Below the pieces are notes generated by a model that saw only the letters and a list, made by a program, of their open reading frames with translations, searched no databases and was not told the origin of the DNA. A stretch of DNA of 42,220 nt from Alphaproteobacteria bacterium. GTDB taxonomy: Bacteria; Pseudomonadota; Alphaproteobacteria; Rhodospirillales; 2-02-FULL-58-16. The position numbers and the translations under genes are program-made. Positions within the stretch are counted from its first letter, which is position 1. Each line of letters opens with the position of its first letter. The stretch spans positions 1 through 42,220 of the forward strand of contig JAJRSS010000291.1 in the NCBI GenBank assembly GCA_024278615.1, read 5' to 3'. Of the stretch, positions 13,991 through 33,837 are shown one piece after another.

Positions 13991-14081
13991 GGATGGGTGG
14001 CCGAGTGGCTGAAGGCGCTGGTTTGCTAAATCAGTATGCGGGAATACCGTATCGTGGGTTCGAATCCCACCCCATCCGCCA
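13991..14081 (+). tRNA. tRNA-Ser (anticodon GCU)
   Basis: The full cloverleaf can be folded. The acceptor stem GGATGGG (13991-13997) pairs with CCCATCC (14071-14077). The anticodon arm CTGGT-TTGCTAA-ATCAG carries GCT. A long variable arm typical of serine tRNAs follows (TATGCGGGAATACCGTATC). The T-arm GTGGG-TTCGAAT-CCCAC spans 14054-14070. The discriminator G is followed by an encoded CCA. It reads AGC and AGU serine codons. A short T-run (ATTTTTCTCG) directly after the CCA may end transcription. Confidence 0.97.
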
Positions 14082-14123: not shown

Positions 14124-14717
14124 CTATGATTCCCATCCCTTTGGCAACTTGTGAGCGATGCCTTTGTGGCAATCGATACATGTTTCGCCCGTCTCCAAAG
14201 ACTTCTTGTGTTTTTTACGCGCTGGACGCACCTGGTCCTCCAGTTTCATGGAAGCCGAGTCATGACAGTTTCGGCACTCACGGGAATCGGTGGCCTTCAT
14301 TTCCGCCCATACGTTTTTCGCCATATAGAGGCGTTGAGCTTCGAACTTCTCCGGCGTATCGATGGTCCCCAGGAAAGAGTGAAGAAGTTCATTGGTCGCC
14401 TTGATTTTGCGGACGAATTTATGTTGCCACTCCTTGGGGACATGACAATCGGAGCAAACGGCCCGCACCCCGGACGTATTGGAATAATGAATCGTTTCCT
14501 TCAGTTCCTGATAAACGTTATCTCTCATTTCATGACAGGAAATGCAGAAGGACTCGGTATTGGAATACGCCATGGCCCAGTTGTAACCACCCCAAAACAC
14601 GACACCGGCAACAAATCCGACGATGGTCAATGCTCCAAAAGAAAACTTGGTGCTAGGGCGCCAAAAAACCGTCCATAGGCGCTTGATGATGCCTGGATTT
14701 TTTTTATCGTCGGCCAT
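14124..14717 (-). CDS. NapC/NirT-family tetraheme cytochrome c (membrane quinol dehydrogenase)
   Basis: Membrane-anchored periplasmic cytochrome of the NapC/NirT/CymA family, which oxidises quinol and passes electrons to periplasmic partners. 197 residues: one N-terminal membrane helix (about 25-48), then four CXXCH haem sites at C58-H62 (CISCH), C88-H92 (CSDCH), C148-H152 (CRNCH) and C180-H184 (CIDCH). The spacing and the segment NTESFCISCHEMRDNVYQELKET fit NapC-type proteins, and the C-terminus ends GIAHKLPKGW as in the family. It lies downstream of the haem-binding cytochrome gene at 14902, with a strong hairpin in between. Given the neighbours it may be the quinol entry point for the cytochrome pathway; no nitrate reductase genes are nearby. 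Confidence 0.93.
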   Translation of the reverse strand: MADDKKNPGIIKRLWTVFWRPSTKFSFGALTIVGFVAGVVFWGGYNWAMAYSNTESFCISCHEMRDNVYQELKETIHYSNTSGVRAVCSDCHVPKEWQHKFVRKIKATNELLHSFLGTIDTPEKFEAQRLYMAKNVWAEMKATDSRECRNCHDSASMKLEDQVRPARKKHKKSLETGETCIDCHKGIAHKLPKGWES

Positions 14718-14901: not shown

Positions 14902-15897
14902 TTATTTGACGCTTACCGCCGAGATATCCGCATCAACACCAATTCCCAGGGCAAACGGGAAGCTGGTGTAATGGAACCGGTCCTTGACCTTGCCATCGTG
15001 GATCGCGAAACCGACGGAGTACACGCTGCCCACCTTCAGAATCTTGTCGTCTTCGGGGTGGCCCGTATCGAGCTTGCGCTGGATAACCACCGTGTAGACA
15101 CCATCTTTCAGTTCACCAGTGCTCTTGCCCGCGTCGCCGATCGAAGACTTGGCGTCCCCGTTACGATATTCCAGCACATACCCGTCCTTGGTCTGGGGCT
15201 TGCCATCTTTAAAGCGCCAATACATCAGGTCAAGGAAACCGCCGCTGGCCTTAATCTTGGCGATTTCATCGGCGGACTTGGTCTTGTCCCAACTTGATTC
15301 TTCATCGGTACGCGAAGCGGCCAGGTATTTGCGGATATCCTTTTTCTTCATGCCGCCATCACCAAACAGGGGATGCGCCTTGACCTTGTCCTCACTGACG
15401 GCCTCGGGGTTGCTGTTCATGCCGTCGTGGCATGTCAGCCAGCATCCTTGGGCCGCGAAATTGGGCACTTTGCCATCATCCAGCATGACGGCCACGCGAA
15501 CCGGCCCATCGGATTGGGTTTCCCATTTGAATCTCAAGTAGAGATTTTCGCCGTCCTGGGCGGCCTGAACGGCCACTTCAATAAACCCGTTTATACCTTC
15601 GGCCGGATTGGGTTCCAGGGGGTGGTCGCCCTCGATAATCGCATCTCCCATGTCTTGCTCGTCATCTTCATGGCAATCGAGACACGCGGCGCCCTTTGGC
15701 ACCTTTCTGTTCCCCTTCTTATGCTCCTTGCTTAAAAGCCAATTGTAAGAGGACTGGCCGGGATAAAATAAACTGATCGTCTTTTCCGGAACCTCAGACC
15801 AATCGGCAGGCGGCCCGGCCACAGCCGCGCCGGAAAGACCAAAAGCGGAAATCAACACCGCGGCACCGAGGGTACGAAAACCCAATGAAGTTGACAT
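14902..15897 (-). CDS. Periplasmic di-heme cytochrome c with ethylbenzene-dehydrogenase-like haem domain
   Basis: A 331-residue protein with a clear signal peptide (cleavage near AAVA-GPP, residue 27). It carries one CXXCH (CLDCH, C72-H76) and one unusual CX3CH (CWLTCH, C152-H157). The beta-rich region after residue 105 (LYLRFKWETQSDGPVRVAVMLDDG, ..., AQGCWLTCHDGM, ..., LDLMYWRFKDG, ..., SVGFAIHDG, ..., RFHYTSFPF) fits the cytochrome c-552/DMSO-reductase-like haem-binding domain related to the gamma subunit of ethylbenzene dehydrogenase. This is a family-level call from the pattern. AGGAG lies about 12 bases ahead of the ATG. With the NapC-type partner downstream it probably takes electrons from the quinol pool in the periplasm. 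An FNR-like box lies 270 bp upstream. The terminal acceptor is unknown. Confidence 0.82.
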   Translation of the reverse strand: MSTSLGFRTLGAAVLISAFGLSGAAVAGPPADWSEVPEKTISLFYPGQSSYNWLLSKEHKKGNRKVPKGAACLDCHEDDEQDMGDAIIEGDHPLEPNPAEGINGFIEVAVQAAQDGENLYLRFKWETQSDGPVRVAVMLDDGKVPNFAAQGCWLTCHDGMNSNPEAVSEDKVKAHPLFGDGGMKKKDIRKYLAASRTDEESSWDKTKSADEIAKIKASGGFLDLMYWRFKDGKPQTKDGYVLEYRNGDAKSSIGDAGKSTGELKDGVYTVVIQRKLDTGHPEDDKILKVGSVYSVGFAIHDGKVKDRFHYTSFPFALGIGVDADISAVSVK

Positions 15898-16400: not shown

Positions 16401-17492
16401 ATGTCTGACGTTTTGAACGCGCCGAAGTCATGGCGATTCCTGTCCGTGGTTGTCGCCCTTGCTGTCTCCGCCGGCGGCCTCTCCGGGTGCGCCGCTCCAG
16501 GCAAGGCGCCGGAGGAACCCAAGAATCTGGTATGGCCTTCCCCGCCCAGTCAGCCGAGGCTGAAATACGTCAGGAGCCTGAGTTCGGAAAAAAGACTGAA
16601 AGAGGGGACCGATCAGGGCAGCGCCATCAAGGACCTTCTGCTTGGCAAGAAAAAGGGCCCCGACGAAGGCATCAGTCTGGCCAAACCCTACGGCGTTCAC
16701 GCCGACCGGGAGGGCCGGGTCCTTGTGGCCGATACCCTGCTGCATAGGCTCGTCGTTTTCGACCTGAAGAAAAATGTAGTGTCCGAGTGGGGAGGCAGCG
16801 GCAAGGGCCGATTGATCACGCCCATCGGCGTCACCTCCGACAGTTTGGGACGGGTCTATGTTACCGATTCAACGGACCAGCGGGTGGTTGTCTACGACCG
16901 GTCGGGAAAGTACCTTTACGCTTGGAATCCGAAGGAAGTGTTCGAACGGCCGACCGGCATCGCCATCGACGAGAAACGAGAGCGTATTTATGTTGTTGAT
17001 ACGAAAAAGCACCAGATTTTTGTCCTCAACATGCGCGGTGACTTGGTGTCCACCATTGGCGAAAAGGGCAACGAGCCTGGGCAATTCCTGTTTCCGGTCA
17101 ACCTGGCCGTGGGCGGCGACGGCAGGCTTTTCGTCGTCGACACGATGAACAACCGGGTCCAGATCCTGGACCCGGAGGGCAAGCCGGTCAAAGCATTCGG
17201 CAAAAACAGCGATGCGCCGGGGAACTTTGCCCGTCCCAAGGGCCTGGCCCTGGACCCGGACGGCAATATTTATGTGGCCGACGCGGCATTCAACAACTTC
17301 CAGATCTTCAACCAGGACGGAGAGGTCTTGCTCATCGTTGGCGAGGGGGGGCGCGGTCCAGGCCAGTTCCAGCTTCCCGCCGGCGCCTATATGGATGCCC
17401 AGGCCCGCCTCTACGTGGTCGATCAAATGAATTCCCGGGTTCAGATCTTCCAGTACCTGAGCGCCGATCCGGCGAAGAAACCGGCCTCCTGA
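16401..17492 (+). CDS. NHL-repeat beta-propeller lipoprotein (first copy)
   Basis: A 363-residue lipoprotein whose signal peptide ends in LSGC (Cys30). After a short LVWPSPPSQPRLKYVRS segment, six or so NHL repeats (about 95-355) follow, each with a version of GVxxDxxGRVYVxDTxNxRVxVFD, for example PVNLAVGGDGRLFVVDTMNN. This predicts a six-bladed propeller in the periplasm or on the outer membrane. NHL lipoproteins occur next to multiheme cytochrome clusters in other bacteria; the role is probably scaffolding or docking, not catalysis, and that is inferred. The ATG at 16401 is chosen because it starts a normal signal peptide and follows AAGGAT; an upstream ATG at 16365 is possible. It is a paralogue of the lipoprotein at 22784. 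Confidence 0.88.
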   Translation: MSDVLNAPKSWRFLSVVVALAVSAGGLSGCAAPGKAPEEPKNLVWPSPPSQPRLKYVRSLSSEKRLKEGTDQGSAIKDLLLGKKKGPDEGISLAKPYGVHADREGRVLVADTLLHRLVVFDLKKNVVSEWGGSGKGRLITPIGVTSDSLGRVYVTDSTDQRVVVYDRSGKYLYAWNPKEVFERPTGIAIDEKRERIYVVDTKKHQIFVLNMRGDLVSTIGEKGNEPGQFLFPVNLAVGGDGRLFVVDTMNNRVQILDPEGKPVKAFGKNSDAPGNFARPKGLALDPDGNIYVADAAFNNFQIFNQDGEVLLIVGEGGRGPGQFQLPAGAYMDAQARLYVVDQMNSRVQIFQYLSADPAKKPAS

Positions 17493-17550
17493 CCGCGGAT
17501 GGCGCACCCACGACCGGATAGGCTTCGTCATTAATATAAAAGACCCATGG

Positions 17551-17594
17551 CCATGCTTCGAGACGGGCCTTTCGGCCCTCCTCAGCATGAGGAG
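17551..17594. repeat. REP-like imperfect palindrome
   Basis: CATGCT pairs with AGCATG around an inner GGGCC-TTTC-GGCCC hairpin. The sequence resembles the interspersed palindromes common in alphaproteobacterial intergenic DNA. It is the first of three such elements in the 745-bp gap 17493-18237, which otherwise holds no gene. Confidence 0.6.
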
Positions 17595-17618
17595 TAAGTA
17601 TTTGATAACAAAAATTTT

Positions 17619-17665
17619 CCTTATCCTGAGCAGCCGCGAAGCGGCGTGTCGAAGAATGCTGCTAA
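17619..17665. repeat. REP-like palindrome, second element
   Basis: It contains the hairpin GCCGC-GAA-GCGGC, flanked by CTTATCCTGAG and GTGTCGAAGAATGC. It resembles the other half of the alphaproteobacterial interspersed palindrome at 17551, in inverted orientation. Confidence 0.6.
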
Positions 17666-17755
17666 TGAGTCGTCACCAGCGCTTCCTGGTATAAGAGTGT
17701 ATCCGGTAATGAACGTCGCGATTTCAAGGCGTTATGGCCTTGCCTAACCCTCCGG

Positions 17756-17784
17756 CCGTTATTCTCGCGAAAGCGGGAATCCAG
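17756..17784. repeat. Palindromic repeat of the CGCGAAAGCGGGAAT type
   Basis: The hairpin ATTCTCGC-GAAA-GCGGGAAT is followed by CCAG. This type of short palindrome is scattered through many proteobacterial intergenic regions. It is the third element in the same gap. Confidence 0.6.
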
Positions 17785-18096
17785 CTTTTCCCCGATTTTC
17801 CGGACTCCCGCTTTAGAGTGCGTGACGCAAGGGGTCGCGAGGCTGTTTCATGGCTCTTTGATTTTGCAAAACCTGCTTTCCGGACGGATACGAAGAGGAT
17901 TCGTTTGTCCGCGCCCTTTCGGTGAACCACCATGAATATGATGGACATGGACATGGTTTTAGCGGCCGAAATTTCTATCTCGCGGGCCATTGATTGGCCA
18001 GGTTTGCACCGAGAGTCTTGAGAAAGTATATATTTTCTATTTATTTTCAATATGTTACGTAAAATATTAAAAAAGTGTGTCGAAATTACTCCCAAA

Positions 18097-18138
18097 ATGA
18101 CTAGAGTCAATTTCCTATCTGGCTGAATGGACTAGAAT
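18097..18138 (+). promoter_or_regulatory. FNR-like box plus -10 element before the tetraheme cytochrome
   Basis: ATGACTAGAGTCAA (18097-18110) is a near-perfect dyad, 7 of 10 to the FNR consensus with the TGA/TCA cores intact. TAGAAT (18133-18138, 5 of 6 to TATAAT) is centred exactly 32 bp downstream, so the box would sit at -41.5. The leader to the ATG at 18238 would be about 93 bases. Confidence 0.6.
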
Positions 18139-18237
18139 TCGCCTATGTCAAATCATGTTTAGGCCCGAGTTCTTCAAGAGGTAGGGGCGTTAGGAACCGA
18201 CCAGCCGATAGCAATCGGGACGCAAAGGAGTAGGAAA

Positions 18238-18834
18238 ATGAAAAAGCTAAATTATTTAATGGCGGTGATGTTGGCGGCCGCCCTGTTCGGTTTCAGCAGC
18301 AGCGCCAATGCGCAACTTGCAAATCACGATCTTTCAACGGGCACCCAAAGTCCTTGTGTCGGTTGCCATACCCCGCACGAATCAGTTTCTAGCCTGATAC
18401 CGTTGTGGAACCATGAAACGACGACGGGGCCCTTCACGATGTACAGCAGCGATACCTTGGACGGCGCCATCGCCGGCTCGCCGCAAGGCTCATCCCTGGC
18501 GTGCCTCTCCTGCCACGACGGTACGGTGGGCGTAGATAATTTCGGCGGCACCACCGGTACCGCAGTCATGGGTGGCGGTACGGAGGGAGGCAAGGTGATC
18601 GGTACAAATCTGACCAATGACCACCCCATTTCCCTCACTTTCGACAATGGGGCGGATGCGGCATTGCAGCTCATCGGTGCCGTGCAAGCGTCCTCGCTGG
18701 TGCTTTTCGGCGCTGGCAATGACCAGGTTGAATGCGCAACCTGCCACAACGTGCACGAAAAATTGTCCGCTACGGGAAATAAGTACTTGCGGATCGCAGG
18801 GTCTACCCTGTGTGGAACCTGCCACACCCAGTAA
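18238..18834 (+). CDS. Tetraheme c-type cytochrome, paired-CXXCH family
   Basis: A 198-residue exported cytochrome with a signal peptide (cleavage near ANA-QL, residues 23-26). Four CXXCH sites: C40-H44 (CVGCH, in CVGCHTPHESVSSLIPLWN), C89-H93 (CLSCHDGT), C166-H170 (CATCHNVHEK) and C192-H196 (CGTCH at the very end). The HTPH, DHPIS and CHDGT segments also appear in the first part of the large cytochrome at 23791, so the two are related. A strong AAGGAG ribosome-binding sequence precedes the ATG, in keeping with high expression. Probably a soluble periplasmic or surface electron carrier. It is followed by a hairpin terminator, so it is likely a single-gene transcript. Confidence 0.93.
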   Translation: MKKLNYLMAVMLAAALFGFSSSANAQLANHDLSTGTQSPCVGCHTPHESVSSLIPLWNHETTTGPFTMYSSDTLDGAIAGSPQGSSLACLSCHDGTVGVDNFGGTTGTAVMGGGTEGGKVIGTNLTNDHPISLTFDNGADAALQLIGAVQASSLVLFGAGNDQVECATCHNVHEKLSATGNKYLRIAGSTLCGTCHTQ

Positions 18835-18879
18835 CCCCCGTATGGCATGCCATAACGAAAGCATGGCGTAACAAAAAAG

Positions 18880-18912
18880 GGGCGGCAAGTGGTCAATCAC
18901 TTGCCGCCCTTC
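18880..18912. terminator. Intrinsic terminator after the tetraheme cytochrome
   Basis: The 12-bp perfect stem GGGCGGCAAGTG / CACTTGCCGCCC (18880-18891 with 18898-18909) has a 6-base loop. A-rich sequence lies before it and T-rich sequence after it, so it could work in both directions. Confidence 0.8.
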
Positions 18913-19406
18913 GTGGTTTTGATCACCCCTTATTGAACTGATCGACCGCTGACTTTTTTTACCATTAAACGTCCACCGCCCGGACAGGGAAGAACCGGCG
19001 GTTTTAACGGAAACCGAGATCACCGCAGCCAAGGCGGGGCGGCAAAACAGACCCGGTGTGGCCGGTTAACGCCGCTCCCCACAACCGCCCGCCTGTCACG
19101 GGGGCCGAACGAAATTGCGCAGGGAAAAGAACAGACGATGGCCGAGCACTCTTCCCAGGACAACTCCTAACCGGTAAAAAAAGCGAGTCGCATTGTTCAA
19201 TTCGGCTGGACCACGGGATTCGGCCAAGGTATCATCACCGGGCGGAACAGAGAATTTACGAATAGTGCTAAGCTCTTAGCAGGTCGGGCCATGACAAAAT
19301 TGAGGCTGGTGATTCTCCAAAGGATTAACCTCAACCGTTCTTGTCAATGGAAGGGTGACGCCGGACGTACTCGCATCCTGGCGACCCGTGGATTGGGGCA
19401 AGAAAA
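18913..19406. other. Intergenic stretch before the triheme lipoprotein, no gene seen
   Basis: About 490 bases. Several short frames cross it, but none has a ribosome-binding sequence or protein-like composition. The promoter of the 19407-25617 gene run probably lies here, yet no FNR-like dyad or clear -35/-10 pair stands out. Confidence 0.4.
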
Positions 19407-20081
19407 ATGAAAGTCGTTCCCGCCGTTAAAAGCCTGTTCGCCCTTTGTGGTTTGCTGTTCATCGTTTCGTGCAGTGAACAGGGCCTCGCCCTCTTTTTCG
19501 ACATTCCCCAACCGACGCCCGAAGAACGGGCGGAGGAAGCAAGGATCCAAGCCGAAGCCAAGGCTATGGCCGAGGCCAAGGTAGCCAAGATGATGGCCGG
19601 CGGCACCCTTGACGGCCAAAGCGGGACAACCGGCGAAACGGCCGCCGCCGCTGAGGTTGAAGAAGAAGAAAGACCTGAAATCGAAAAAGCGGCGACCTGG
19701 AAACAAGCGAAGGGTTTTTTCCCCATGGACCGTGAAGGCCGCAAGGGCCGGCCCGATTGGACCGAAGCCGTGCGTCAGGGAATCATCCGGCCCCGCGAGT
19801 CCGTGGATGGCGTCAAGAAGCCGGCGCGGTTCATCTTCAAATACGATTTTTTTATCCCCACCGAAGAGCCGGGCTTCGAAGCTTATTTCCCCCACTCCAC
19901 CCACACGGAATGGATTGACTGCGCGAGCTGCCACCCAAAGATTTTTCCCGTACGGGGCGCCAAGATGACGAAAAAGGAAATGAAGAAGGGAAAGTACTGC
20001 GGCGTTTGCCACAGGAAAAAGAACGGCACCGCGTTCTGGCTTAAGGCTTGTGACCGCTGCCACCTTTTGGCCAAGGATTGA
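19407..20081 (+). CDS. Triheme c-type cytochrome lipoprotein
   Basis: A 224-residue protein with a lipoprotein signal (FIVSC, Cys22). A Glu/Ala-rich coil-prone segment (about 34-95) follows, then a C-terminal cytochrome c7/c3-like domain with three haem sites: C172-H176 (CASCH), C198-H202 (CGVCH) and C215-H219 (CDRCH). FPHSTHTEWIDCASC supplies histidines suited to bis-His ligation. The N-terminal coil looks like a tether that holds the haem domain away from the membrane. The next gene encodes a related triheme domain 8 bp downstream, so these two are tandem duplicates. The likely job is carrying electrons across the periplasm to the outer-membrane barrel; this is inferred from context. Confidence 0.88.
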   Translation: MKVVPAVKSLFALCGLLFIVSCSEQGLALFFDIPQPTPEERAEEARIQAEAKAMAEAKVAKMMAGGTLDGQSGTTGETAAAAEVEEEERPEIEKAATWKQAKGFFPMDREGRKGRPDWTEAVRQGIIRPRESVDGVKKPARFIFKYDFFIPTEEPGFEAYFPHSTHTEWIDCASCHPKIFPVRGAKMTKKEMKKGKYCGVCHRKKNGTAFWLKACDRCHLLAKD

Positions 20082-20089
20082 GTGCCGGG

Positions 20090-20581
20090 ATGATGCTTCG
20101 AATATTTTTTCTCGCCATTGCGTTCCTTGTCTCCGTTCAAGGTGTGGGACTGGCGAAATCCGACAAGGTGCCCGGTAATGTGATTATCGAAAGAATTGGC
20201 GAGGGAGAAAAGACCTACAACCAGGCCACGTTTCCCCACTGGATACATGCCATCAGGTACCGGTGTTTCGCCTGCCATCCGGCGCCATTCAAAATGGTGA
20301 AGTTCAAGCTGGAAAAAGGCACCCTCAAGCAGGACCGCCCACCTTTCGTGCTCCCGGTCGAGCAGAAAGCACCGGACAAGGATGACGCAAAAACAGAGGA
20401 AGACAAAAAGGGTAAAGGAAAAGCCAAGAAGGCGAAAGCAGGATCGAAGAAAGGCACCGCGGGTAAAGTCAAGGCCACACAGGGGCGAATGCATGGAGAA
20501 GAAAGCTGTGGGCTTTGCCATAACGGCAAAACCGCCTTCAAGGTTGAGTTCAAGACCTGTTCCCGATGCCATTTGGAATGA
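20090..20581 (+). CDS. Periplasmic triheme c-type cytochrome with Lys-rich insert
   Basis: 163 residues from the ATG at 20090, with a signal peptide to about residue 22 (VGLA-KSD). Three haem sites: C59-H63 (CFACH), C140-H144 (CGLCH) and C157-H161 (CSRCH). FPHWIHAIRYRCFACH matches the FPHSTHTEWIDCASCH segment of the upstream gene, so they are paralogues. An insert rich in Lys, Asp and Gly (about 95-130) separates the first haem from the others and may bind acidic partners or the membrane. A longer version from the TTG at 20078 is possible but would overlap the previous stop codon and has no advantage. Confidence 0.85.
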   Translation: MMLRIFFLAIAFLVSVQGVGLAKSDKVPGNVIIERIGEGEKTYNQATFPHWIHAIRYRCFACHPAPFKMVKFKLEKGTLKQDRPPFVLPVEQKAPDKDDAKTEEDKKGKGKAKKAKAGSKKGTAGKVKATQGRMHGEESCGLCHNGKTAFKVEFKTCSRCHLE

Positions 20582-20768
20582 TCATTGCAGGAAGCCGGGC
20601 AACAATCATACCTAAGTAGGGAAAGAAATTTGGATCGGTTCCGTGTCCGGCAATTTTTCTTTGTAAGGTGAAATCTTAAGTTGATCCGAGTTCGAGGCTT
20701 GCAGGGGATTCAACCATTGACCTTAGGTTGCCGATTTTCAAAAAGCGAGCGTCCACGGATATATTGGG

Positions 20769-22784
20769 ATGAAAACTTCTGCCCCGATCGGATGTGCCGT
20801 CTTGGCTGTCACCCTTTTTGGTGCGGCGGCGAACGCGTTGGCGGCCGATTGGGCTGTTTTCGAACCCTGGTTCGACCTGGATCCATGGGTTCATTTGGAA
20901 CCGAAGGATTGGGAGCTGACACTCGGCTTTGAAGGCTTCAATCGTTCGGGAGATACCGGGAAAAAGTCTGACTTTGAATTCGAAGAGTCACTTCTCATGG
21001 ACCAGGACGGATACATTCTCGACCCCAAAATCGCGACGTTTTCCTTGAGCAGCAGAGTTGCCTTGGAACAGGGAAGGTATAGCGAACCCAACTCGGGGAC
21101 GGTTGGTGAAACTAGCGGTACCCGCTTTGGTTTGTTCACTGACTATGACGCGAGGATAAGCCTTCTGCATGGCACATTGATTCCGCTGACGATTACCGGC
21201 CAGGCCACCCTTGATTCAGGGTCGCTGGACGGCGAGCTTGGGCGAAGGACGGAATTTACGAACCAGACCAACGATGTAACGGTTCTGTACAGGAACCCAT
21301 ACTTTCCTTCTTCCATTTCATATTCAGAAATATACGTGGATGAGTTGTCTTCCTCCGGTTTGAGCAGCGCCGAAAACCTGGAAGACAGCATACTGCGCAG
21401 GCTTCGGTTCAACGGACGAAGCAGCAAACTGAACCTTCAATTGAGCCAGGACTGGTTCAACGATCTGACCGATGCCACTACCCAGCAAGAGGATTACGCC
21501 AAAACCGAAGGCAGCGCATTTCATACCTTTTACTGGGGAAAGGGAAGCAGCCTGAATTCCTTTTTGCGGTACCAAGACAGAACCGGTTACAGTCCGAATA
21601 GAACTCTAAGCATCAGTGAATCGGCCACTTTGCGACACAGTTCCAAACTTCAGAGTTCATTCGACTACAGTTTTTCAAATGAGAAATATACAACAAAGAC
21701 GATCACCAATTCTGGTGCGGCCGAGGTCGTTCATCACCTCTATGACAACCTGACATCCACCCTCCGTCTTTCCGGTTCCAACGAAGACTCAGAAGCCAGC
21801 GATGAGAAGGAATACGACGCCAGGGTCGATTTCGATTACCGAAAAAATATTTTGTGGAACGGAAAGCTGACGCTCGGCGTTGGCGGCGGCTATGGCGTCA
21901 CCGACCGGAAAACAACCGAGGGCCTGCTTGAAGTGGTCGACGAATCCCACGTCGTTCCCATCGGCAGGATCGTTTCGTTGGAACGGCAATTCGTTGAAAC
22001 GACGACAATCGTTGTCACCAATCTGGCGGGAAACATTACCTATACCCTTGGGGTGGATTATACCTTTCAGGCGGCCGGTGATAACCACACCGAGCTGAAT
22101 ATCCTTCCCGCCGGGCTGATCATCGTCGGACAAACCATCCTGGTCGATTACAAGGTTCAACCGTTACCGACGCAGAAATTTTCGCGTCTGCCCTACAGCT
22201 TCAATGCAGGGTTGGATTTCGGATGGATTTTTGTTTACCAGAGGATAAATGGTGAACAGCAGAGCCTTATCTCCGGCCGGGACGCGGATTCGATAAACAA
22301 CAGTATTAATACAACAACGGGCGTTGAGTTCAGGTGGAATGGGTTCGGTGGGCGCGCGACTTTCGTGGCCGAAAAAACCCGTATCGATACGGGTAGTTTT
22401 AGAACGGATTCCTTCGATTTCAGGCAGACCTTTGAATACGCCATTGCATCCGATGCCACTTTTAATGCCAATACGAGTGAGAGTTTCATCACATCCGTCG
22501 ATAGGGAAATTACTGTATACTCTGGAAACGCGACGGTGAATTGGCGGCCCCTGCGGGGCATGACCATCCGGCCCGAGGCGAGCATATGGAAAAGAAAGTC
22601 AGAAGAGTCTTCCACGAGCCTGATCGCGGATACTGACGATACCTACGCCAGCGCGGGATTGTCCGTTCGCTGGCTTATCCGCTCGGTTGACCTGGACATG
22701 CGCTACACGCACAATCGCCGTTCTGGGTCCAGCTCCAATACGAAAGAGCATCGCCTAATGCTTACCGTTTCGAGAAAGTTCTGA
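20769..22784 (+). CDS. Outer-membrane beta-barrel protein (porin of a porin-cytochrome-like conduit)
   Basis: A 671-residue protein with a signal peptide (cleavage near ALA-ADW, residue 26). The rest is a long run of alternating polar/hydrophobic segments with aromatic ends (for example ITGQATLDSG, NVTVLYRN-like strands, FDYSFSNEKY, VDFDYRKNILW), and the protein ends LMLTVSRKF with the C-terminal phenylalanine typical of BAM-inserted barrels. It contains no CXXCH and only one Cys, in the signal peptide. I do not recognise an exact family. It sits between small periplasmic cytochromes and a large multiheme cytochrome, as the barrel does in porin-cytochrome conduits, and its size suits a pore able to sheath a cytochrome. 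The stop codon overlaps the next gene as TGATG. Confidence 0.82.
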   Translation: MKTSAPIGCAVLAVTLFGAAANALAADWAVFEPWFDLDPWVHLEPKDWELTLGFEGFNRSGDTGKKSDFEFEESLLMDQDGYILDPKIATFSLSSRVALEQGRYSEPNSGTVGETSGTRFGLFTDYDARISLLHGTLIPLTITGQATLDSGSLDGELGRRTEFTNQTNDVTVLYRNPYFPSSISYSEIYVDELSSSGLSSAENLEDSILRRLRFNGRSSKLNLQLSQDWFNDLTDATTQQEDYAKTEGSAFHTFYWGKGSSLNSFLRYQDRTGYSPNRTLSISESATLRHSSKLQSSFDYSFSNEKYTTKTITNSGAAEVVHHLYDNLTSTLRLSGSNEDSEASDEKEYDARVDFDYRKNILWNGKLTLGVGGGYGVTDRKTTEGLLEVVDESHVVPIGRIVSLERQFVETTTIVVTNLAGNITYTLGVDYTFQAAGDNHTELNILPAGLIIVGQTILVDYKVQPLPTQKFSRLPYSFNAGLDFGWIFVYQRINGEQQSLISGRDADSINNSINTTTGVEFRWNGFGGRATFVAEKTRIDTGSFRTDSFDFRQTFEYAIASDATFNANTSESFITSVDREITVYSGNATVNWRPLRGMTIRPEASIWKRKSEESSTSLIADTDDTYASAGLSVRWLIRSVDLDMRYTHNRRSGSSSNTKEHRLMLTVSRKF

Positions 22785-23791
22785 TGATCCGGTTTTGGCC
22801 TATTCTGCTTTTCGCGGTTCTGGTCGCGTGCGCGCCCGGCGAGAAAAAAGTTCGCCACGTCTACCCGCCAGAGGAAACTTTGCTCTGGCCCCCGCCTCCA
22901 CAGGAAGCAAGGATCAGATACCTGTACGCCTTCCATGAACCGGCGGACCTGGGCTTTCAACAGTCGTTCATTGAAGGCTTGTGGAAATTTCTGGCCGGGG
23001 AAGCGTTGCGGGGAATGGTCCGGCCATACGCCATCGCCGCCCAAGGCGATTCGGTCGCCATCGCCGATCCCGGCCTCGGCGTTCTGCACCTCTATAATAT
23101 GAAGGAAAAGACCTACAAGAGGATCGAAAAGGTAGCAGGCGAAAAGATCGTCTCGCCGGTCGGCGTGGCCATGGGTCCCGACCGGATTTATTTCGTCGAT
23201 TCCACGTTGGAAAAGATCTTTATTCTTGACCGCGATGGAACTTACCGGCGCACGGTTACCGGGCTCAAGCGTCCGACCGGAGTTGCGTATCATCGCGAAA
23301 CGGGCCGCCTTTACGTGGCCGATACCCTTGACCACCGGATTTCCGTTTTTAATGCCGAGGGAAATCCCCTTTTCAATTTTGGAGCAAGGGGGGGCGAGCC
23401 AGGTAAGTTCAACTATCCCACTCACATCACTTTGTCTGGAAGCACGCTTTATGTGAACGACACCATGAATTTCCGGGTTCAGACCTTTGACCTGGATGGC
23501 AAGTTCCTGTCCTCCTTCGGCAAGATCGGTGATGGCTCGGGATTCTTCGCCCAACCGAAAGGGGTGGGCGTGGATGCCGAAGGGCATGTGTACGTGGTCG
23601 ACGCCCTGTTCAATCGCATTCAAATTTTCGATCCTTCCGGTGTTTTCTTATTGGCCTTTGGCGCGCAGGGTAAACGCGCCGGCGAATTCTGGCTGCCGGC
23701 CGGTGTCTTTATCGACAATAACAAAATTTTTGTCGCCGATTCCTACAACCAGCGAGTCCAGGTGTTCGAATTTCTGGAGACGAAATCGTAA
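22784..23791 (+). CDS. NHL-repeat beta-propeller lipoprotein (second copy)
   Basis: 335 residues with a lipobox LVAC (Cys16). The segment LLWPPPPQEARIRYLYAF copies the LVWPSPPSQPRLKYVRS of the first NHL lipoprotein, so both come from one duplication. About six NHL repeats cover residues 80-330, for example PTGVAYHRETGRLYVADTLD and QPKGVGVDAEGHVYVVDALF. It overlaps the barrel stop codon by one base and its own stop codon overlaps the large cytochrome start by one base, so barrel, propeller and cytochrome are translated as a coupled unit. This argues for a stoichiometric complex at the outer membrane. Confidence 0.88.
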   Translation: MIRFWPILLFAVLVACAPGEKKVRHVYPPEETLLWPPPPQEARIRYLYAFHEPADLGFQQSFIEGLWKFLAGEALRGMVRPYAIAAQGDSVAIADPGLGVLHLYNMKEKTYKRIEKVAGEKIVSPVGVAMGPDRIYFVDSTLEKIFILDRDGTYRRTVTGLKRPTGVAYHRETGRLYVADTLDHRISVFNAEGNPLFNFGARGGEPGKFNYPTHITLSGSTLYVNDTMNFRVQTFDLDGKFLSSFGKIGDGSGFFAQPKGVGVDAEGHVYVVDALFNRIQIFDPSGVFLLAFGAQGKRAGEFWLPAGVFIDNNKIFVADSYNQRVQVFEFLETKS

Positions 23792-25035
23792 TGCGCCGCC
23801 TTTTTTTCATTCTTGTCCTTCTTCTCTGGTCCGTCCCGGCACTGGCTTCAGACATCCAGAACACGGTGCACAACCTGTCCACTTCGGGGCCGGGCCCGTT
23901 CAAAAGCCTGACCGTCGACCAGGTATGCGTGTTCTGCCACACACCGCACAACGCCTCGCCGCTGGCGCCCCTGTGGAACCGGCAGATGTCGGGGCAGGTC
24001 TACCTGGAATACGGCAGCTCAACTTTGGACGCCTCCCCCGGACAACCGACGGGCCAATCGCGTTTATGCCTCGCTTGTCACGATGGCACCGTAGCCTTGG
24101 GGGCACTGCTCAATCAGCCGAGCGGGCAAACCAACGACTTGTTGAGCACCCTGTTGACGGGAAGAGGTAATTTGGGGACCGACCTCGGCGACGATCATCC
24201 CATATCGTTCCTGTACGACGGCGGTTTGGCGGTGAAGGACCAGCAGTTGGCCCATCCGGCGGGCATCGGCCTTCCCCTCGAAAACAATGAATTGCAGTGC
24301 ACCACGTGCCACGAACCCCACGACAACAGCCTGGCGCCTTTCCTGCGCAAATCGGTCATGAACAGTCAGCTTTGCGTGACCTGCCATCAAAAGGCCGATG
24401 GCGCCTGGAACTGGAACAACTCATCGCACGCGACGTCCTCGGCGACGGCAAGCGGCGGAACGTCCCCCTGGGATGACAGGAAACCGGAATGGCGGGGGAC
24501 CACCGTTGCCCAGAACGGCTGCCTTAACTGCCATACCCCCCACAATGCGGCGACCCCTTCGTGGTTGCTCAAGTCGCAGGAGGAAGCCACCTGTTACGCC
24601 TGCCACAACGGCACCGTGGCGGCGACCAATATTCAAAGCGAGGCCACCAAACCCTACCGTCACCCGGTCGAGACAACACCCAATCCGGATCACGATTCGC
24701 CCCTGGTTGAAAAACCTTTGACCATGAACCTTCATGCCGAATGTTCGGACTGTCACAATCCCCATGGCGTGAAATCGGCATTGCCGATGATTTCCTTTAA
24801 TCCCGCCAGCCCCATGAACGGCCAACATACGACCGCGCCGGCGGCCAACGCCGTGATCGCGGGTGTGCCGGGCATCGACAGCGGCGGGGCGGTAAAGGCA
24901 AATATCGATAATCAATATGAGCTTTGTTTCAAGTGCCATGGTGTACCGGGAAAGAGCGCTTGTGGCACCGGCCGTTGCTCTACGGCCACGAGTTTCTCCA
25001 TGGTCCGGGCGGATGGCGAATATAATATCCGCTAA
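23791..25035 (+). CDS. Large multiheme c-type cytochrome, N-terminal part (8 haems), ended by an in-frame TAA
   Basis: 414 residues before the stop codon at 25033. The signal peptide is cleaved near ALA-SDI (residue 19). Eight CXXCH sites: C46 (CVFCHTPH), C93 (CLACHDGT), C170 (CTTCHEPHD), C195 (CVTCH), C244 (CLNCHTPH), C268 (CYACHNGT), C319 (CSDCHNPHG) and C379 (CFKCH). These are doubled-CXXCH family repeats with CHxPH pairs. The first two sites resemble the tetraheme protein at 18238. The same frame stays open past the TAA to 25617 with four more haem motifs and clear family continuity, so this is the front part of a 12-haem cytochrome. Either the gene carries a nonsense mutation, the stop is read through, or the base is a sequencing error. 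Confidence 0.88.
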   Translation: MRRLFFILVLLLWSVPALASDIQNTVHNLSTSGPGPFKSLTVDQVCVFCHTPHNASPLAPLWNRQMSGQVYLEYGSSTLDASPGQPTGQSRLCLACHDGTVALGALLNQPSGQTNDLLSTLLTGRGNLGTDLGDDHPISFLYDGGLAVKDQQLAHPAGIGLPLENNELQCTTCHEPHDNSLAPFLRKSVMNSQLCVTCHQKADGAWNWNNSSHATSSATASGGTSPWDDRKPEWRGTTVAQNGCLNCHTPHNAATPSWLLKSQEEATCYACHNGTVAATNIQSEATKPYRHPVETTPNPDHDSPLVEKPLTMNLHAECSDCHNPHGVKSALPMISFNPASPMNGQHTTAPAANAVIAGVPGIDSGGAVKANIDNQYELCFKCHGVPGKSACGTGRCSTATSFSMVRADGEYNIR

Positions 25036-25617
25036 AAGGTCAGCAGCAGCAGCCCCGGACTGGTTTCCTACCATCCCATCGATATCAATAATCCCAGCAA
25101 CAATTCGGAAGTGCCCAGCCTGCGGTCCGACATTCCCCTTAACCGATCGACCAGCCGTATCTATTGCACCGACTGCCACAGCAGCAATACCGCCTCCGCG
25201 GCGGGCGGAACCGGCCCCGACGGCCCCCATGGCTCCACGAACCCGGCGATGCTGACCCAGAGCTACAGCCTCGATCCATCAACCCCTTACAGTTCATCAA
25301 ACTATCAACTGTGTTACAAGTGTCATAGCGAATCAAAAATTCTGTCGGACGCCAGTGGCTTCCCCCACAAAAAGCACCTTAAATCTAAAAAAATGCACAG
25401 TAATAAAGAGTTTTCCTGTTCGGCCTGTCATGACCCGCATGGTTCAAAAAAATCGAAATACCTGATCAATTTCATGGTGAGCTCCAATTTCGGCGGTAAC
25501 GACGACATCACGCCGATCAGTGGAGAGAGCGAACCCCGCTGGCAGGATGACGGCCTGTACAAGGGCCGTTGTTACCTCGTCTGCCACGGCGAGACCCACA
25601 ATCCGGAGACGTATTAG
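25036..25617 (+). pseudogene. Distal part of the interrupted 12-haem cytochrome (4 haem motifs)
   Basis: Continues the frame of the 23791 gene directly after the TAA at 25033-25035, with no frameshift. The text KVSSSSPGLVSYHPIDINN joins naturally to the preceding RADGEYNIR, and the first in-frame ATG (25111) lies 25 codons into this text. Haem motifs are CTDCH, CYKCH, CSACHDPHG and a C-terminal CX3CH, CYLVCHGETH. An independent product from the ATG at 25111 would lack a signal peptide, and c-type haem is attached only outside the cytoplasm, so a separate functional protein is unlikely. One base change (for example GAA to TAA) would explain the break. Confidence 0.8.
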
Positions 25618-25875: not shown

Positions 25876-26847
25876 ATGAGCCACGATTTCCTGCATGAGG
25901 TGGCCGAACCGGCACGGCAGGTACGTGAAGGGTCCCGCTTCGAGGTGGTGGGGCGGGAGGATTTCTCCGAATCCACCTTCCTCCTCCGGATTCACTATCC
26001 CCTGTTGGCCAAGGCCGCCAAGCCCGGCCAATTCGTTATCGTCATGTCCCAGGAACATGGCGAGCGCATACCGCTGACCATCGCCGATTTCGATCCAGAT
26101 TCGGGCATCGTCACCCTGGTCATCCAGGCGGTCGGAAAAACCACCATGGAGATGCAGCAAAACTGCCAGGTCGGGGCTGAGCTTTTCAGCCTCGTGGGCC
26201 CGATGGGGGTTCCCAGCCATATCGGTGATGCCGCCAAGGTCATTTGCGTCGGAGGCGGATTGGGCGTGGCGCCCGTTTTCCCCCATGCGCGCGCCTTCAA
26301 ACAAAATGGCGCCTATGTCATCGGCGTTGTCGGGTTCAGAACCCGGCAATTGGTCTTCTGGGAGGACAAGTTCCGGAACTATTGCGACGAATTCATAATC
26401 TGCACGGATGACGGGTCGGCGGGAATCAAGGGGCTGGTCACCGATGGGATCAAGGTGGCCATGGACAAGCACCCCGACATAGATGAGGTCATCGCCATAG
26501 GCCCGCCGGTCATGATGAGGGCATGCGCGGAAACAACACGCCCCCACAAGCTGAAAACCACCGTCAGCCTGAATCCGGTCATGGTCGACGGTACGGGAAT
26601 GTGCGGCGGCTGCCGGGTAAAGGTCGGCGAAAAAATGATGTTTGCCTGCGTTGACGGCCCTGACTTCGATGGCCATCAGGTGGATTTCGACGACCTCGCG
26701 AACCGGCTGCGCCGATTTTCGGAGGAGGAAAAAATCGCCGCCGAGAGATGGTCTAAATCCTGCCGTGCGGTGAAAGCCACACATGGTCCGCACCCCGGTG
26801 AAACCGGGCCTCGGCCTCAGGGTGAAGGAGAACCCACAGCCGGATAG
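25876..26847 (+). CDS. NfnA/SudB-like FAD/NAD(P)-binding subunit with [2Fe-2S] cluster
   Basis: Ferredoxin-NADP reductase-type subunit of the NfnAB/SudAB family, which transfers electrons between ferredoxin and NAD(P)H; the same fold is used by sulfide dehydrogenase and dihydroorotate dehydrogenase K subunits. 323 residues. FAD domain: AKPGQFVIVM, then RIPLTIADFD. NAD domain: VICVGGGLGVAPVFPHARA. The C-terminal cluster loop GTGMCGGCRVKVGEKMMFACVDGPDFDGH gives the usual Cys-x2-Cys-x11-Cys pattern with Asp as the probable fourth ligand. Compared with typical relatives it has about 20 extra residues at the N-terminus and a 50-residue tail. The ribosome-binding sequence is weak. It is first in the operon with its flavoprotein partner and the Kor genes. 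Confidence 0.88.
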   Translation: MSHDFLHEVAEPARQVREGSRFEVVGREDFSESTFLLRIHYPLLAKAAKPGQFVIVMSQEHGERIPLTIADFDPDSGIVTLVIQAVGKTTMEMQQNCQVGAELFSLVGPMGVPSHIGDAAKVICVGGGLGVAPVFPHARAFKQNGAYVIGVVGFRTRQLVFWEDKFRNYCDEFIICTDDGSAGIKGLVTDGIKVAMDKHPDIDEVIAIGPPVMMRACAETTRPHKLKTTVSLNPVMVDGTGMCGGCRVKVGEKMMFACVDGPDFDGHQVDFDDLANRLRRFSEEEKIAAERWSKSCRAVKATHGPHPGETGPRPQGEGEPTAG

Positions 26848-26883
26848 CCGTTTCTTGCCGTGAATTTTCGGGACCATGGGATA

Positions 26884-28389
26884 ATGAAAACGAAGAAGAC
26901 CATAAGAAACATTCCGCAGGAACGGACCCCCATCGGGGTACAGGATCCGAAGGAACGGGCGGGGAATTTTGACGAGGTTGCGCTTGGATACGGACTGGAA
27001 GACACGCTGAACGAAAGCGAGCGCTGCCTCATGTGCCCGTCGGCCGCGTGTATCGCCGGCTGTCCGGTGGGAATAGATATTCCCGGTTTCATCCAGAAGA
27101 TGATCGATAGGGACTTTCGCGGCGCCTACGATATCGTCAGCGAGTCCAATTTACTGCCGGCCATCTGTGGCCGCGTCTGCCCGCAGGAGGACCAGTGCGA
27201 AGGCGTCTGCCCCGTGGGCGATACCCTGGAACCGGTCGCGATCGGACGCCTGGAGCGCTGGATCGGCGATCTGGCGATTGAAAAAAAATGGGAAAACACG
27301 CCCTACCGCGAAGCAAACGGCTTTAAGATCGGCATCGTAGGCTCCGGTCCCGGCGGCATGGCCTGCGCCGCCGACATGGCCAAGGCGGGGTGCGACGTCA
27401 CGGTCTATGAGGCATTTCAAAAACCGGGCGGCGTTTTGAGGTACGGCATTCCCGAATTCCGCCTGCCCGACGCCGTGATCAACGCCGAGGTCGAAAGCCT
27501 GGCCAGGCTGGGCGTCAGGATCGAATGTGACACGCTGGTGGGGCGCCTGTTCACGATTGAACAGATGCTCGACGAAATGGGTTTCGACGCCGTGTTCGTC
27601 GGCACCGGGGCCGGCTCGCCGAGGTTCATGGGCATCCCGGGCGAATCCCTGAATGGCGTTGTTTCCGCCAACGAGCTTTTGACCCGCTGCAACCTCATGC
27701 ACGCCGGAGAGTTCCCCGATTACGACACGCCCCTGCATCTCGGCAAGCGCGTCGCCGTGATCGGCGCCGGTAATACGGCCATGGACGCCATGAGAGTGTC
27801 CCTAAGACTGGGCGCCGAGCAGGTCTTCTGCGTTTACCGCCGGACCAAGGCTGAAAGCCCCGCAAGGGTGGAGGAGATCGGCCATGCGGAGGAAGAAGGC
27901 ATTGATTTCCAATGGTTGACCGCCCCTGTCGAAATTCTCGACGACGGCGAGGGAAACGTCCGCGGCATGCGCTGCGTCCGCATGGAACTGGGCGAGCCGG
28001 ATGATTCCGGCAGGCGGCGCCCCGTCCCCATCGAGGGCAGCGAGTACGAATTCGAGGCGGACATGGTCGTCTATGCGATTGGGACAACGGCCAATCCGAT
28101 CATCGGCCAGACCTGCAAGCTCAAACTCAACCAGTGGGGCTACATCGAGGTCGACGATGATCTTGCGACTTCCATGGCTGGTGTCTTCGCCGGTGGCGAT
28201 ATCGTAACCGGCGGCTCGACCGTGATCCTGGCCATGGGAGCAGGGCGCAAGGCGGCGCGCAGCATGAAAGCGTACCTTGGGATACGTGATACCGATGTCA
28301 TTTACTTACCGGAACCGGAGAGAAGCAAAGGCAGGCTTTTCGGAATCGAGGTCGAGGAGAAGAATTTCTCGCGCCTCCGAATTGCCTAG
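26884..28389 (+). CDS. NfnB/SudA/GltD-like flavoprotein with two [4Fe-4S] clusters
   Basis: Large subunit of an NfnAB-type transhydrogenase or a glutamate-synthase small-chain-like protein. 501 residues from the ATG at 26884 (GGGA just ahead); the GTG at 26860 would add 8 residues but has no leader. The N-terminal cysteines (RCLMCPSAACIAGCPVGIDIP, then ICGRVCPQEDQCEGVCP) bind two [4Fe-4S] clusters. The FAD dinucleotide motif GIVGSGPGGMACAADMAKAG and the NADPH motif VAVIGAGNTAMDAMRVSLRLG follow, ending with VFAGGDIVTGGSTVILAMGAGRKAA. Paired with NfnA and followed by KorAB, it more likely links NADPH to ferredoxin than makes glutamate. Confidence 0.9.
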   Translation: MKTKKTIRNIPQERTPIGVQDPKERAGNFDEVALGYGLEDTLNESERCLMCPSAACIAGCPVGIDIPGFIQKMIDRDFRGAYDIVSESNLLPAICGRVCPQEDQCEGVCPVGDTLEPVAIGRLERWIGDLAIEKKWENTPYREANGFKIGIVGSGPGGMACAADMAKAGCDVTVYEAFQKPGGVLRYGIPEFRLPDAVINAEVESLARLGVRIECDTLVGRLFTIEQMLDEMGFDAVFVGTGAGSPRFMGIPGESLNGVVSANELLTRCNLMHAGEFPDYDTPLHLGKRVAVIGAGNTAMDAMRVSLRLGAEQVFCVYRRTKAESPARVEEIGHAEEEGIDFQWLTAPVEILDDGEGNVRGMRCVRMELGEPDDSGRRRPVPIEGSEYEFEADMVVYAIGTTANPIIGQTCKLKLNQWGYIEVDDDLATSMAGVFAGGDIVTGGSTVILAMGAGRKAARSMKAYLGIRDTDVIYLPEPERSKGRLFGIEVEEKNFSRLRIA

Positions 28390-28464
28390 TACCAACTTTC
28401 GCTGGTTCGTGAGCCGCGTCCGACGACACAACCAGCCGCGAAATCGGTACGGACTCAATAATTT

Positions 28465-28516
28465 GCCCCTGCTTTCAGGCTTCGCGCCTGTGGTGCGAAA
28501 CTCTGAAACCAGGGGC
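28465..28516 (+). other. 52-nt near-perfect hairpin between nfnB-like gene and korA
   Basis: GCCCCTG-c-TTTCAG (28465-28478) pairs with CTGAAA-c-CAGGGGC (28503-28516). Inside it, TTCGCGCC (28481-28488) pairs with GGTGCGAA (28492-28499). No T-run follows, so it is not a standard terminator. It ends 24 bases before korA and could be an RNA-processing or stability element that sets the korAB level. Confidence 0.6.
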
Positions 28517-28540
28517 TAAAACGAAGGGCAGGAAGCCGGA

Positions 28541-30511: not shown

Positions 30512-30515
30512 TCTT

Positions 30516-31511
30516 ATGACCACTTCTGCGACGCGCTGCCTGTTGAGGACGCTCGACGAGAATTACGCGCTCGAAGACTACCAAAGCGGCGTACCGCGGT
30601 GGTGCATCGGATGTGGCGACAATGCCATTCTCGCCGCTGTCCAGCGATTGTGCCGTGACGAGCAACTGCCGCCTGAAAAGACCGTATTCGTATCGGGGAT
30701 CGGCTGCTCCAGCCGGTTCCCGCACTACATGCATACCTACGGGTTCCACGGTCTGCATGGCCGCGCCTTTCCGGTCGCCGAAGGAATCAAATTGAAGCGT
30801 CCGGACCTTCATGTTTTCGTCGTTACCGGCGATGGTGATTGTTGCAGCATTGGCACCGCCCACTGGATCCACGCTATCCGGTACAACATGAACATGACGG
30901 TGTTGATGCATGACAACGGAATCTATGGCCTGACCAAGAATCAGGCGTCGCCGACATCTCCACAGGGCCTGAAGAGCAACACCACGCCCCGGGGGGCGCA
31001 TTTGGAGCCGATTAACCCGGTTAGCGTAAATCTCGGCATTCGAAACGTTTCGTTCGTCGCCCAGGCCGTGGATTGGATTCCGGAACTGCTGCACGACATC
31101 ATCGCCGCGGCGTACCATCACAAGGGTTTTTCGTTTGTTCGCGTGGTGCAACGGTGCCCCGAATACCTGCCGGACCGGTATGATCCCTGGGTCAAGAACC
31201 CGGACCGGATGCTGCTCCTCTCCCACGCGGACGGCATTCAGATCAGCCCCGAGCTGTCGAGAGTTTACCGGCACCAGGAAAAACATGATCCCGCCGACAG
31301 GAACCGGGCCCGGGAGATCGCATCGGTCAGCGACCCCATGCCGGTTGGCGTTCTCTACCGGAACCGGAATATGCCTTGTTACGAAGACCTTCGTGAGCCC
31401 GATAAACCGTATACGCCGAGCATGGTCGGGGCCGCGCTTAACCGGGAGTTTGATAAGTTCACCATATGGCCGGAGAACGGCGAGGACGGAGGGGCGGGAA
31501 AGCGAGGCTGA
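30516..31511 (+). CDS. korB: 2-oxoacid:ferredoxin oxidoreductase beta subunit
   Basis: TPP- and [4Fe-4S]-binding beta subunit partnering KorA. 331 residues. The cluster cysteines are C30 and C33 (RWCIGCGDN), C64 (GIGCSS) and C214 (VVQRCPEYLP). The TPP motif spans GDGDCCSIGTAHWIHAIRYN (105-124) through NGIYGLTKNQASPTSP (134-149), and the conserved loop HTYGFHGLHGRAFPVAEGIK is present. The N-terminus is slightly longer than in some KorB proteins, and a C-terminal tail (about 265-331) goes beyond the minimal fold. It is followed 67 bp later by the unusual PFOR-like/ferredoxin protein, on the same strand. Confidence 0.93.
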   Translation: MTTSATRCLLRTLDENYALEDYQSGVPRWCIGCGDNAILAAVQRLCRDEQLPPEKTVFVSGIGCSSRFPHYMHTYGFHGLHGRAFPVAEGIKLKRPDLHVFVVTGDGDCCSIGTAHWIHAIRYNMNMTVLMHDNGIYGLTKNQASPTSPQGLKSNTTPRGAHLEPINPVSVNLGIRNVSFVAQAVDWIPELLHDIIAAAYHHKGFSFVRVVQRCPEYLPDRYDPWVKNPDRMLLLSHADGIQISPELSRVYRHQEKHDPADRNRAREIASVSDPMPVGVLYRNRNMPCYEDLREPDKPYTPSMVGAALNREFDKFTIWPENGEDGGAGKRG

Positions 31512-31578
31512 CCGTTTACCGGCGGACCAAAGCAAGTGATGCCCGCGTTGAGCACGGAATAGTGGATTGGATGAATCT

Positions 31579-33833: not shown

Positions 33834-33837
<4 letters not shown>
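31579..33837 (+). CDS. Degenerate PFOR-beta-like protein with C-terminal ferredoxin-type Cys motif
   Basis: A 752-residue protein I cannot place in a named family. Residues about 340-510 read like the TPP-binding domain of pyruvate:ferredoxin oxidoreductase. [20 protein letters not shown] corresponds to the strand before the PFOR NTGGQ loop, [17 protein letters not shown] to its MTYGYVYVA segment, and [18 protein letters not shown] to the VKSGYWPLFRYDP segment. The GDG-type TPP motif is lost ([10 protein letters not shown]). A Glu/Pro-rich linker (about 610-675) leads to a ferredoxin-like end with C681, C684, C687 and C723 (CTSCNECT, then [14 protein letters not shown]). The N-terminal 330 residues are helical without known motifs. 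It follows korB and probably serves KorAB as an electron-carrying accessory subunit. The start is the ATG at 31579; a TTG at 31567 is possible. Confidence 0.8.

Follow-up and report, generated by a model that had tools for sequence, protein, structure and literature searches.

The 42,220-nucleotide stretch of DNA analyzed here (the window), contig JAJRSS010000291.1 of the alphaproteobacterial assembly GCA_024278615.1, carries at positions 16401-25617 a gene cluster that is probably a reduced version of Uet, an extracellular electron-transfer cluster already described in other bacteria. An initial annotation had proposed at this location a trans-envelope electron conduit of a type that exactly matched none of the known ones. 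Homology, synteny across many phyla and the match to the Uet gene set give good support to the view that the cluster encodes a conduit across the outer membrane for extracellular electron transfer. The novelty of the type did not hold, since the gene set corresponds to the published Uet, which was absent from a comparison limited to Mtr, Pio and Omb/Oma/Omc. The annotation also overlooked a stop codon inside the frame of the large cytochrome, and it missed that OmcE, the Geobacter nanowire subunit, is related to the tetrahaem cytochrome and to the first third of the larger protein.

Identification of a Probable Uet-Type Cluster

The features of the cluster, all on the + strand and in 5' to 3' order, are the following.

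16401-17492, +, NHL beta-propeller lipoprotein, UetH/I-like (PF01436, E 5e-35, four repeats; lipobox LSGC; alternative ATG start at 16365)
18238-18834, +, secreted tetrahaem cytochrome, UetA-like, OmcE family (phmmer match to OmcE; four CXXCH; Sec signal)
18878-18911, +, strong stem-loop right after the tetrahaem gene (15-pair stem), candidate attenuator or terminator
19407-20081, +, trihaem cytochrome c7 lipoprotein, UetD/E/G-like (PF14522, E 3.5e-12; TIGR04257, nanowire_3heme, above cut-off; lipobox IVSC)
20078-20581, +, periplasmic trihaem cytochrome c7, UetD/E/G-like (PF14522, E 5e-10; TIGR04257 above cut-off; TTG start; 4-base overlap with the preceding gene)
20769-22784, +, outer-membrane beta-barrel, UetC-like, 671 residues, C-terminal phenylalanine (AlphaFold2 model; synteny)
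22784-23791, +, second NHL beta-propeller lipoprotein, UetH/I-like, between the barrel and UetJ (PF01436, E 1e-20; lipobox LVAC)
23791-25035, +, UetJ-like doubled-CXXCH cytochrome, 5' part: signal peptide, OmcE-like tetrahaem domain, four further CXXCH; stop TAA 25033-25035
25036-25617, +, UetJ-like cytochrome, 3' part past the stop, in the same frame: three CXXCH and one CX3CH

The positions and types of these genes agree with the initial annotation, as do the one-base overlaps that join the barrel gene to the second NHL gene and the latter to the large cytochrome gene. Its count of five multihaem cytochromes has to be lowered to four in 16401-25617; the nearest fifth is a NapC/NirT-type tetrahaem protein encoded on the opposite strand at 14124-14717. 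The large cytochrome, annotated as having 12 haem motifs, does have 11 CXXCH and one CX3CH in one frame, but they do not form one open reading frame. The alphaproteobacterial host is consistent with the kinship of the cluster to that of a genome of the same family, Rhodospirillales bacterium OFTM194 (G006).

Uet, the undecahaem electron transfer complex of Candidatus Tenderia electrophaga, has been reported also in Gallionella (PMC10734462, citing Eddie et al. 2022), and belongs to cathode- and Fe(II)-oxidizing bacteria. It comprises the tetrahaem cytochrome UetA, the isomerase UetB, the barrel UetC, the trihaem cytochromes UetDEG, the NHL proteins UetHI and UetJ, which has 11 or 12 motifs (PMC10734462). 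In cathode-grown Tenderia, the three trihaem genes were among the most highly expressed, beside a tetratricopeptide repeat (TPR) gene (2017 transcriptome, PMC5371394) that, judging from the locus numbering, would be uetF. For Leptothrix, a possible role of UetJ as iron oxidase has been discussed (PMC13386937).

The window shares with this system a tetrahaem cytochrome, trihaem cytochromes, a barrel of large size and a pair of NHL proteins; a UetJ-like sequence with 11 CXXCH in total is also there, though interrupted. The counterpart of UetA is the secreted OmcE-family cytochrome at 18238-18834, with its four CXXCH and Sec signal, and that of UetC is a barrel of about 28 strands in the AlphaFold2 model, syntenic with UetJ. 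UetH and UetI correspond to the NHL genes 16401-17492 and 22784-23791. Homology to UetJ extends over the whole length of the protein, and the 11 CXXCH and the CX3CH are all present in total, split 8 + 3 by a TAA codon.

Several points weigh against this assignment. It is based on gene content, haem counts and synteny rather than on direct alignment to the Tenderia proteins. Two trihaem cytochromes are encoded in the cluster, not the three of the UetD/E/G set; no UetB peptidylprolyl isomerase was found in it, and the matches elsewhere in the genome were only partial parvulin matches; no TPR match that could represent UetF was detected among the cluster proteins. The uetJ-like gene is interrupted by an in-frame TAA at codon 415 (25033-25035), which leaves eight CXXCH before it and three CXXCH and the CX3CH after it. 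Finally, when the model of the barrel was compared with known structures by VIA-align, pilus ushers and LptD came first among the 50 matches listed, which also included TonB-dependent receptors (Z 14-20, root-mean-square deviation (rmsd) 6-14 Å). These matches indicate only a large single barrel, and the absence of MtrB from the 50 listed excludes nothing. Since UetB, the TPR protein and one trihaem cytochrome are missing, the cluster was filed as a reduced Uet-type variant, which also differs from Uet in its interrupted UetJ and its alphaproteobacterial host.

Other known conduits are more distant. The MtrAB, MtoAB and PioAB systems have in common with the window a wide barrel, multihaem cytochromes and a CymA/NapC-type partner; however, the cluster has no MtrA-type decahaem cytochrome and its barrel is unrelated by sequence. 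A barrel of the MtrB/PioB family was rejected as a candidate because PF11854 is absent from the genome. The Omb/Oma/Omc and Ext conduits of Geobacter also combine a barrel with cytochromes that are lipoproteins or periplasmic. The lipoproteins ExtC and ExtF are of the pentahaem type (PMC6148476), and a pentahaem gene is found beside the barrel in many Uet-related loci. Unlike in the window, no NHL proteins or OmcE-like subunit have been described for these conduits, a distinction drawn from gene content only. The osc (omcS companion) operon of Geobacter, compared by description only, resembles the cluster in that the gene of a cytochrome filament is accompanied by genes with putative roles in secretion and folding, but OmcS is a hexahaem protein whereas the window has the OmcE type.

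Distribution and Synteny of Related Loci

A search of GTDB genomes with a two-sequence UetJ profile identified at least 568 UetJ relatives in a dozen phyla. Carriers that have been cultured from the environment include Desulforhopalus sp. IMCC35007 (L015), Carboxylicivirga marina N1Y132 (L081) and Planctomycetales ZRK34 (L069). The best 80 came from Nitrospirota, Thermodesulfobacteriota, Bacteroidota, Planctomycetota, Verrucomicrobiota, Calditrichota, Acidobacteriota, Gammaproteobacteria and others. The stored flanks of these 80 loci contained the barrel in 72, an NHL gene in 77, two or more NHL genes in 61 and UetA in 59, all of which are lower bounds because many contigs end early. An NHL gene lies at most 250 bases from uetJ in 61 of the 80. 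A pentahaem gene immediately precedes the barrel in 37 loci; this position is occupied by two trihaem genes in the window and in one G006 locus (L004), and locus L077 also has a trihaem gene there.

Full-length UetJ was found in two of the 317 genomes of the order to which the window belongs. The second carrier is G006 (contig JAJFIG010000209.1). Of its two clusters, one is syntenic with that of the window, has an intact UetJ and a barrel 36% identical to the window's, and seems to be divided between two contigs (L004 and L109); the other lies on L005. The first NHL lipoprotein (16401-17492) is 54% identical to the NHL protein of L004, and the trihaem lipoprotein (19407-20081) has a counterpart there with 45% identity. 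The UetJ tree groups the window with L109 (support 99) and places L005 among Nitrospirota and Thermodesulfobacteriota, an arrangement that suggests separate acquisitions. A plasmid search with the NHL protein returned generic propellers only.

Relationship to the OmcE Nanowire Subunit

The amino acid sequence of the window UetA matches the OmcE filament subunit of Geobacter sulfurreducens (7TFS, E 9e-18) and 9YUQ, a 16-chain PDB entry (E 1.5e-20), in phmmer searches. Its four proximal and four candidate distal haem-ligand histidines, all present in the window, are conserved in 93-100% of 67 homologues. The histidine of an N-terminal HDL motif, conserved in 93% of the homologues, is a candidate ligand to a haem of a neighboring subunit. 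In OmcE filaments a histidine of one subunit does ligate a haem of the next (PMC9473688).

Over residues 14-213, a profile that included the window UetJ gave a match to OmcE (E 5e-41). The AlphaFold2 model of the intact UetJ of G006 locus L005 has a predicted local distance difference test (pLDDT) score of 91.4, and its residues 33-212 superimpose on 7TFS with Z 16.8 and an rmsd of 1.8 Å over 178 residues (38% identity). On the strength of sequence and predicted fold, UetA and residues 33-212 of UetJ are thus homologous to OmcE, sharing the four CXXCH and the same set of histidines. The differences are that UetJ continues into a C-terminal region with seven more CXXCH and the CX3CH, and that the polymerization of UetA is putative. 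For the C-terminal two thirds of UetJ, a structure search revealed no clear counterpart among solved folds, only weak matches (Z ≤4). Because OmcE subunits share histidine ligation between neighbors, UetJ could be joined to a UetA filament by way of an OmcE-type domain at its free end. Open reading frames of 806-871 residues in other proteobacteria (L100, L101, L110-L113), with an N-terminus resembling the OmcE-type domain of UetJ, possibly represent a further family of OmcE-domain fusions. Sampling of a phylum in the search for Tenderia yielded only proteins with such an N-terminus, 806-835 residues long, in other genomes.

The hairpin at 18878-18911 has a z value of -3.8, and none of 200 shuffled sequences was as stable. 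Stems of at least 10 pairs follow uetA in 29 of 67 loci, compared with 3 of 75 for the barrel gene, 11 of 150 for NHL genes and 9 of 78 for uetJ. This enrichment is the pattern expected if UetA were made in excess of the other products of the cluster.

These observations led us to a tentative proposal, to which we give somewhat less than an even chance: Uet clusters would be outer-membrane base stations of OmcE-type nanowires. UetA would be the subunit, produced in excess by means of the recurrent hairpin, and UetJ, with its OmcE domain and its C-terminal region of seven to eight haems, an adaptor that anchors the filament and couples it electrically to the UetC barrel. The module would be spread over a dozen phyla and rarely acquired by Alphaproteobacteria. 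A 2025 review regards the attachment of cytochrome nanowires to the cell envelope, and their electrical connection with it, as unresolved (PMC12307469), and a Uet module built around an OmcE-type filament with UetJ as candidate anchor was not found stated in the literature searched. The module is a concrete and testable candidate for the anchoring: in a single gene, an OmcE-type filament domain is joined to additional haems next to a predicted very wide barrel, in an arrangement conserved across phyla and found also in isolates. The value of the window itself is narrower: it represents one of the rare carriers among Alphaproteobacteria, in which the gene set is reduced and UetJ interrupted.

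The Interrupted uetJ Gene

The two parts of the window UetJ are 54% (5' part, over 388 amino acids) and 43% (3' part, over 191 amino acids) identical to the intact UetJ of L109. At the position of the stop codon 64 of 80 aligned homologues have leucine, and the window protein is the only one interrupted. If translation started at the GTG at 25111, the 3' part would lack an export signal of its own. As the assembled UetJ is cut by the stop, this copy of the cluster may be impaired.

A recoding of the stop codon was dismissed: to our knowledge TAA is not used as a selenocysteine or pyrrolysine codon, and no homologue has a stop there. An assembly or sequencing error, with UetJ whole in the organism, has a probability that we place just under one half. 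The lesion is single and one substitution away from a leucine codon, and the downstream half is fully conserved; no independent assembly of the species was found with which the codon could be compared. Decay of the cluster in this lineage, UetJ being a recent pseudogene and the missing genes a sign of loss, would account for a TAA that no homologue has, for the absence of UetB and UetF and for the lack of a signal peptide in the open reading frame downstream of the stop. We nevertheless consider decay rather unlikely. Every other gene of the cluster is open and complete, all haem motifs past the stop are kept in frame with no second lesion, the G006 cluster of the same family is intact, and in a draft of 329 contigs one changed base may be an error in the sequence.

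Exactly 11 CXXCH are present in one frame in 77 of the 81 UetJ proteins examined. The C-terminal CX3CH is invariant in all 69 sequences of one alignment, and there are enough conserved histidines for twelve bis-histidine haems; proteins of the UetJ kind, called undecahaem, may therefore bind twelve. Some gammaproteobacterial UetJ proteins end in a glycine-rich tail, GMGGMGG in L056 and GGGGGMG in L028.

The Predicted Barrel and the Proposed Mechanism

The AlphaFold2 model of the barrel, built with 71 aligned homologues, has a mean pLDDT of 88.6 and a predicted template modeling score (pTM) of 0.75. Twenty-eight long strands were counted, 17 on the N-terminal side of an inserted beta domain (residues 387-463) and 11 on its C-terminal side; the figure is a count of strands, and a closed barrel is presumed. 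The barrel represents a real family and not an open reading frame that arose by chance: of 89 sequences searched with an iterated profile, among them the window and loci that overlap, 79 contained it, and 60 of the 79 open reading frames end in phenylalanine. No match was obtained in Pfam, NCBIfam or PDB sequences, and a query of the genome contigs with the single sequence found no relative; the relatives were reached through the UetJ profile. Among the 50 Foldseek matches listed, MtrB (6r2q) had the highest TM-score, 0.45-0.47, although not the best E-value, and this score reflects only a similar large barrel. The prediction is thus a very wide barrel in the outer membrane that belongs to a sequence family of its own and whose pore, judging from the model, could plausibly accommodate a cytochrome.

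From the homology of the parts and their conserved synteny, which were observed, we infer the following working mechanism. The NapC/CymA-like enzyme would exchange electrons with the quinone pool, the trihaem cytochromes, one soluble and one a lipoprotein, would carry them across the periplasm, and the wide UetC-like barrel would be the opening in the outer membrane, with the NHL lipoproteins as putative assembly or scaffold factors. UetJ would convey electrons either through the barrel or from a position on top of it, and UetA, the OmcE-like subunit, would be produced in excess and polymerize outside the cell into a haem filament. UetJ may be the junction between filament and barrel, because the first 180 residues of the mature protein form the OmcE-type domain.

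Electron flow is most likely inward, with uptake from Fe(II), minerals or partners, a direction favored by the autotrophic character of the genome. It encodes a 460-residue ribulose-1,5-bisphosphate carboxylase/oxygenase (RuBisCO), a protein of form II length, and contains dsrA, a dsrB-like gene and ccoN (cbb3 oxidase). From the sequences we read the RuBisCO as form II and the genes beside it as Calvin-cycle neighbors (aldolase, transketolase and epimerase). A lithoautotroph with micro-oxic respiration would fit electron uptake, as proposed for Tenderia and Gallionella. Related clusters are also found in Geobacteraceae and Desulfobacterota, where the electrons may run outward.

The barrel could instead serve mainly as a secretion and assembly pore for the OmcE-like filament, in the manner of the Geobacter osc machinery, and not as a sheath around a fixed cytochrome conduit. 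The membership of UetA and the UetJ N-terminus in the OmcE family agrees with such a function, and the osc operon has been proposed to supply the folding and secretion proteins of OmcS nanowires (PMC13194489; PMC12977616). The pilus ushers that headed the VIA-align matches are secretion pores, and the hairpin after uetA suggests a subunit in excess. However, periplasmic trihaem or pentahaem cytochromes adjoin the barrel, as they do in conduits, and UetJ has haem sites beyond the filament domain; we regard a mainly secretory pore as the less probable function, yet one to be taken seriously. An ordinary substrate porin with unrelated cytochromes as neighbors is highly improbable, since the absence of Pfam and NCBIfam matches, which would leave room for it, is set against a synteny in which the barrel accompanies UetJ, NHL proteins and UetA through dozens of genomes, against overlapping genes and against a barrel far larger than general porins.

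Genomic Context and Neighboring Genes

Two features lie to the left of the conduit genes.

13991-14081, tRNA-Ser, exactly on the left boundary of the low-G+C stretch with which the cytochrome region begins
14124-14717, -, NapC/NirT (CymA-like) tetrahaem inner-membrane quinol dehydrogenase (PF03264, E 9e-75; four CXXCH)

The G+C content is 54.7% in the cluster, compared with 63.8% on the left flank and 59.2% on the right. This drop beside a tRNA-Ser gene suggests a genomic island, and only suggests it because no flanking repeat was found: the 3' end of the tRNA has no copy elsewhere in the window. Promoter matches were at chance level only. The NapC-like protein scored 283 bits with TIGR02161, below the cut-off of 310.6, and is a candidate link of the conduit to the quinone pool; no match to it was found on the G006 cluster contigs searched. 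The genome has no doubled-CXXCH cytochrome outside this cluster.

Adjoining the NapC-like gene, on the - strand at 14902-15897, is a gene for a periplasmic haem-binding protein of the ethylbenzene dehydrogenase type (PF09459) with one CXXCH and one CX3CH. To the right of the cluster, the region 25876-35189 encodes an NfnAB/SudBA-like pair, a KorAB-type 2-oxoacid:ferredoxin oxidoreductase, citrate synthase and a 756-residue protein without Pfam match whose C-terminus is cysteine-rich and ferredoxin-like; ferredoxin-linked carbon metabolism beside the conduit is possible. Farther right are encoded a pentapeptide-repeat protein that has a long linker rich in Pro and Glu and an additional domain at its C-terminus (35796-37250), a ferric-iron type ATP-binding cassette transporter consisting of an SBP_bac_6 binding protein, a permease and an ATPase (37528-41541) and, at the right end of the window, a hemerythrin-like protein (41633-42073).

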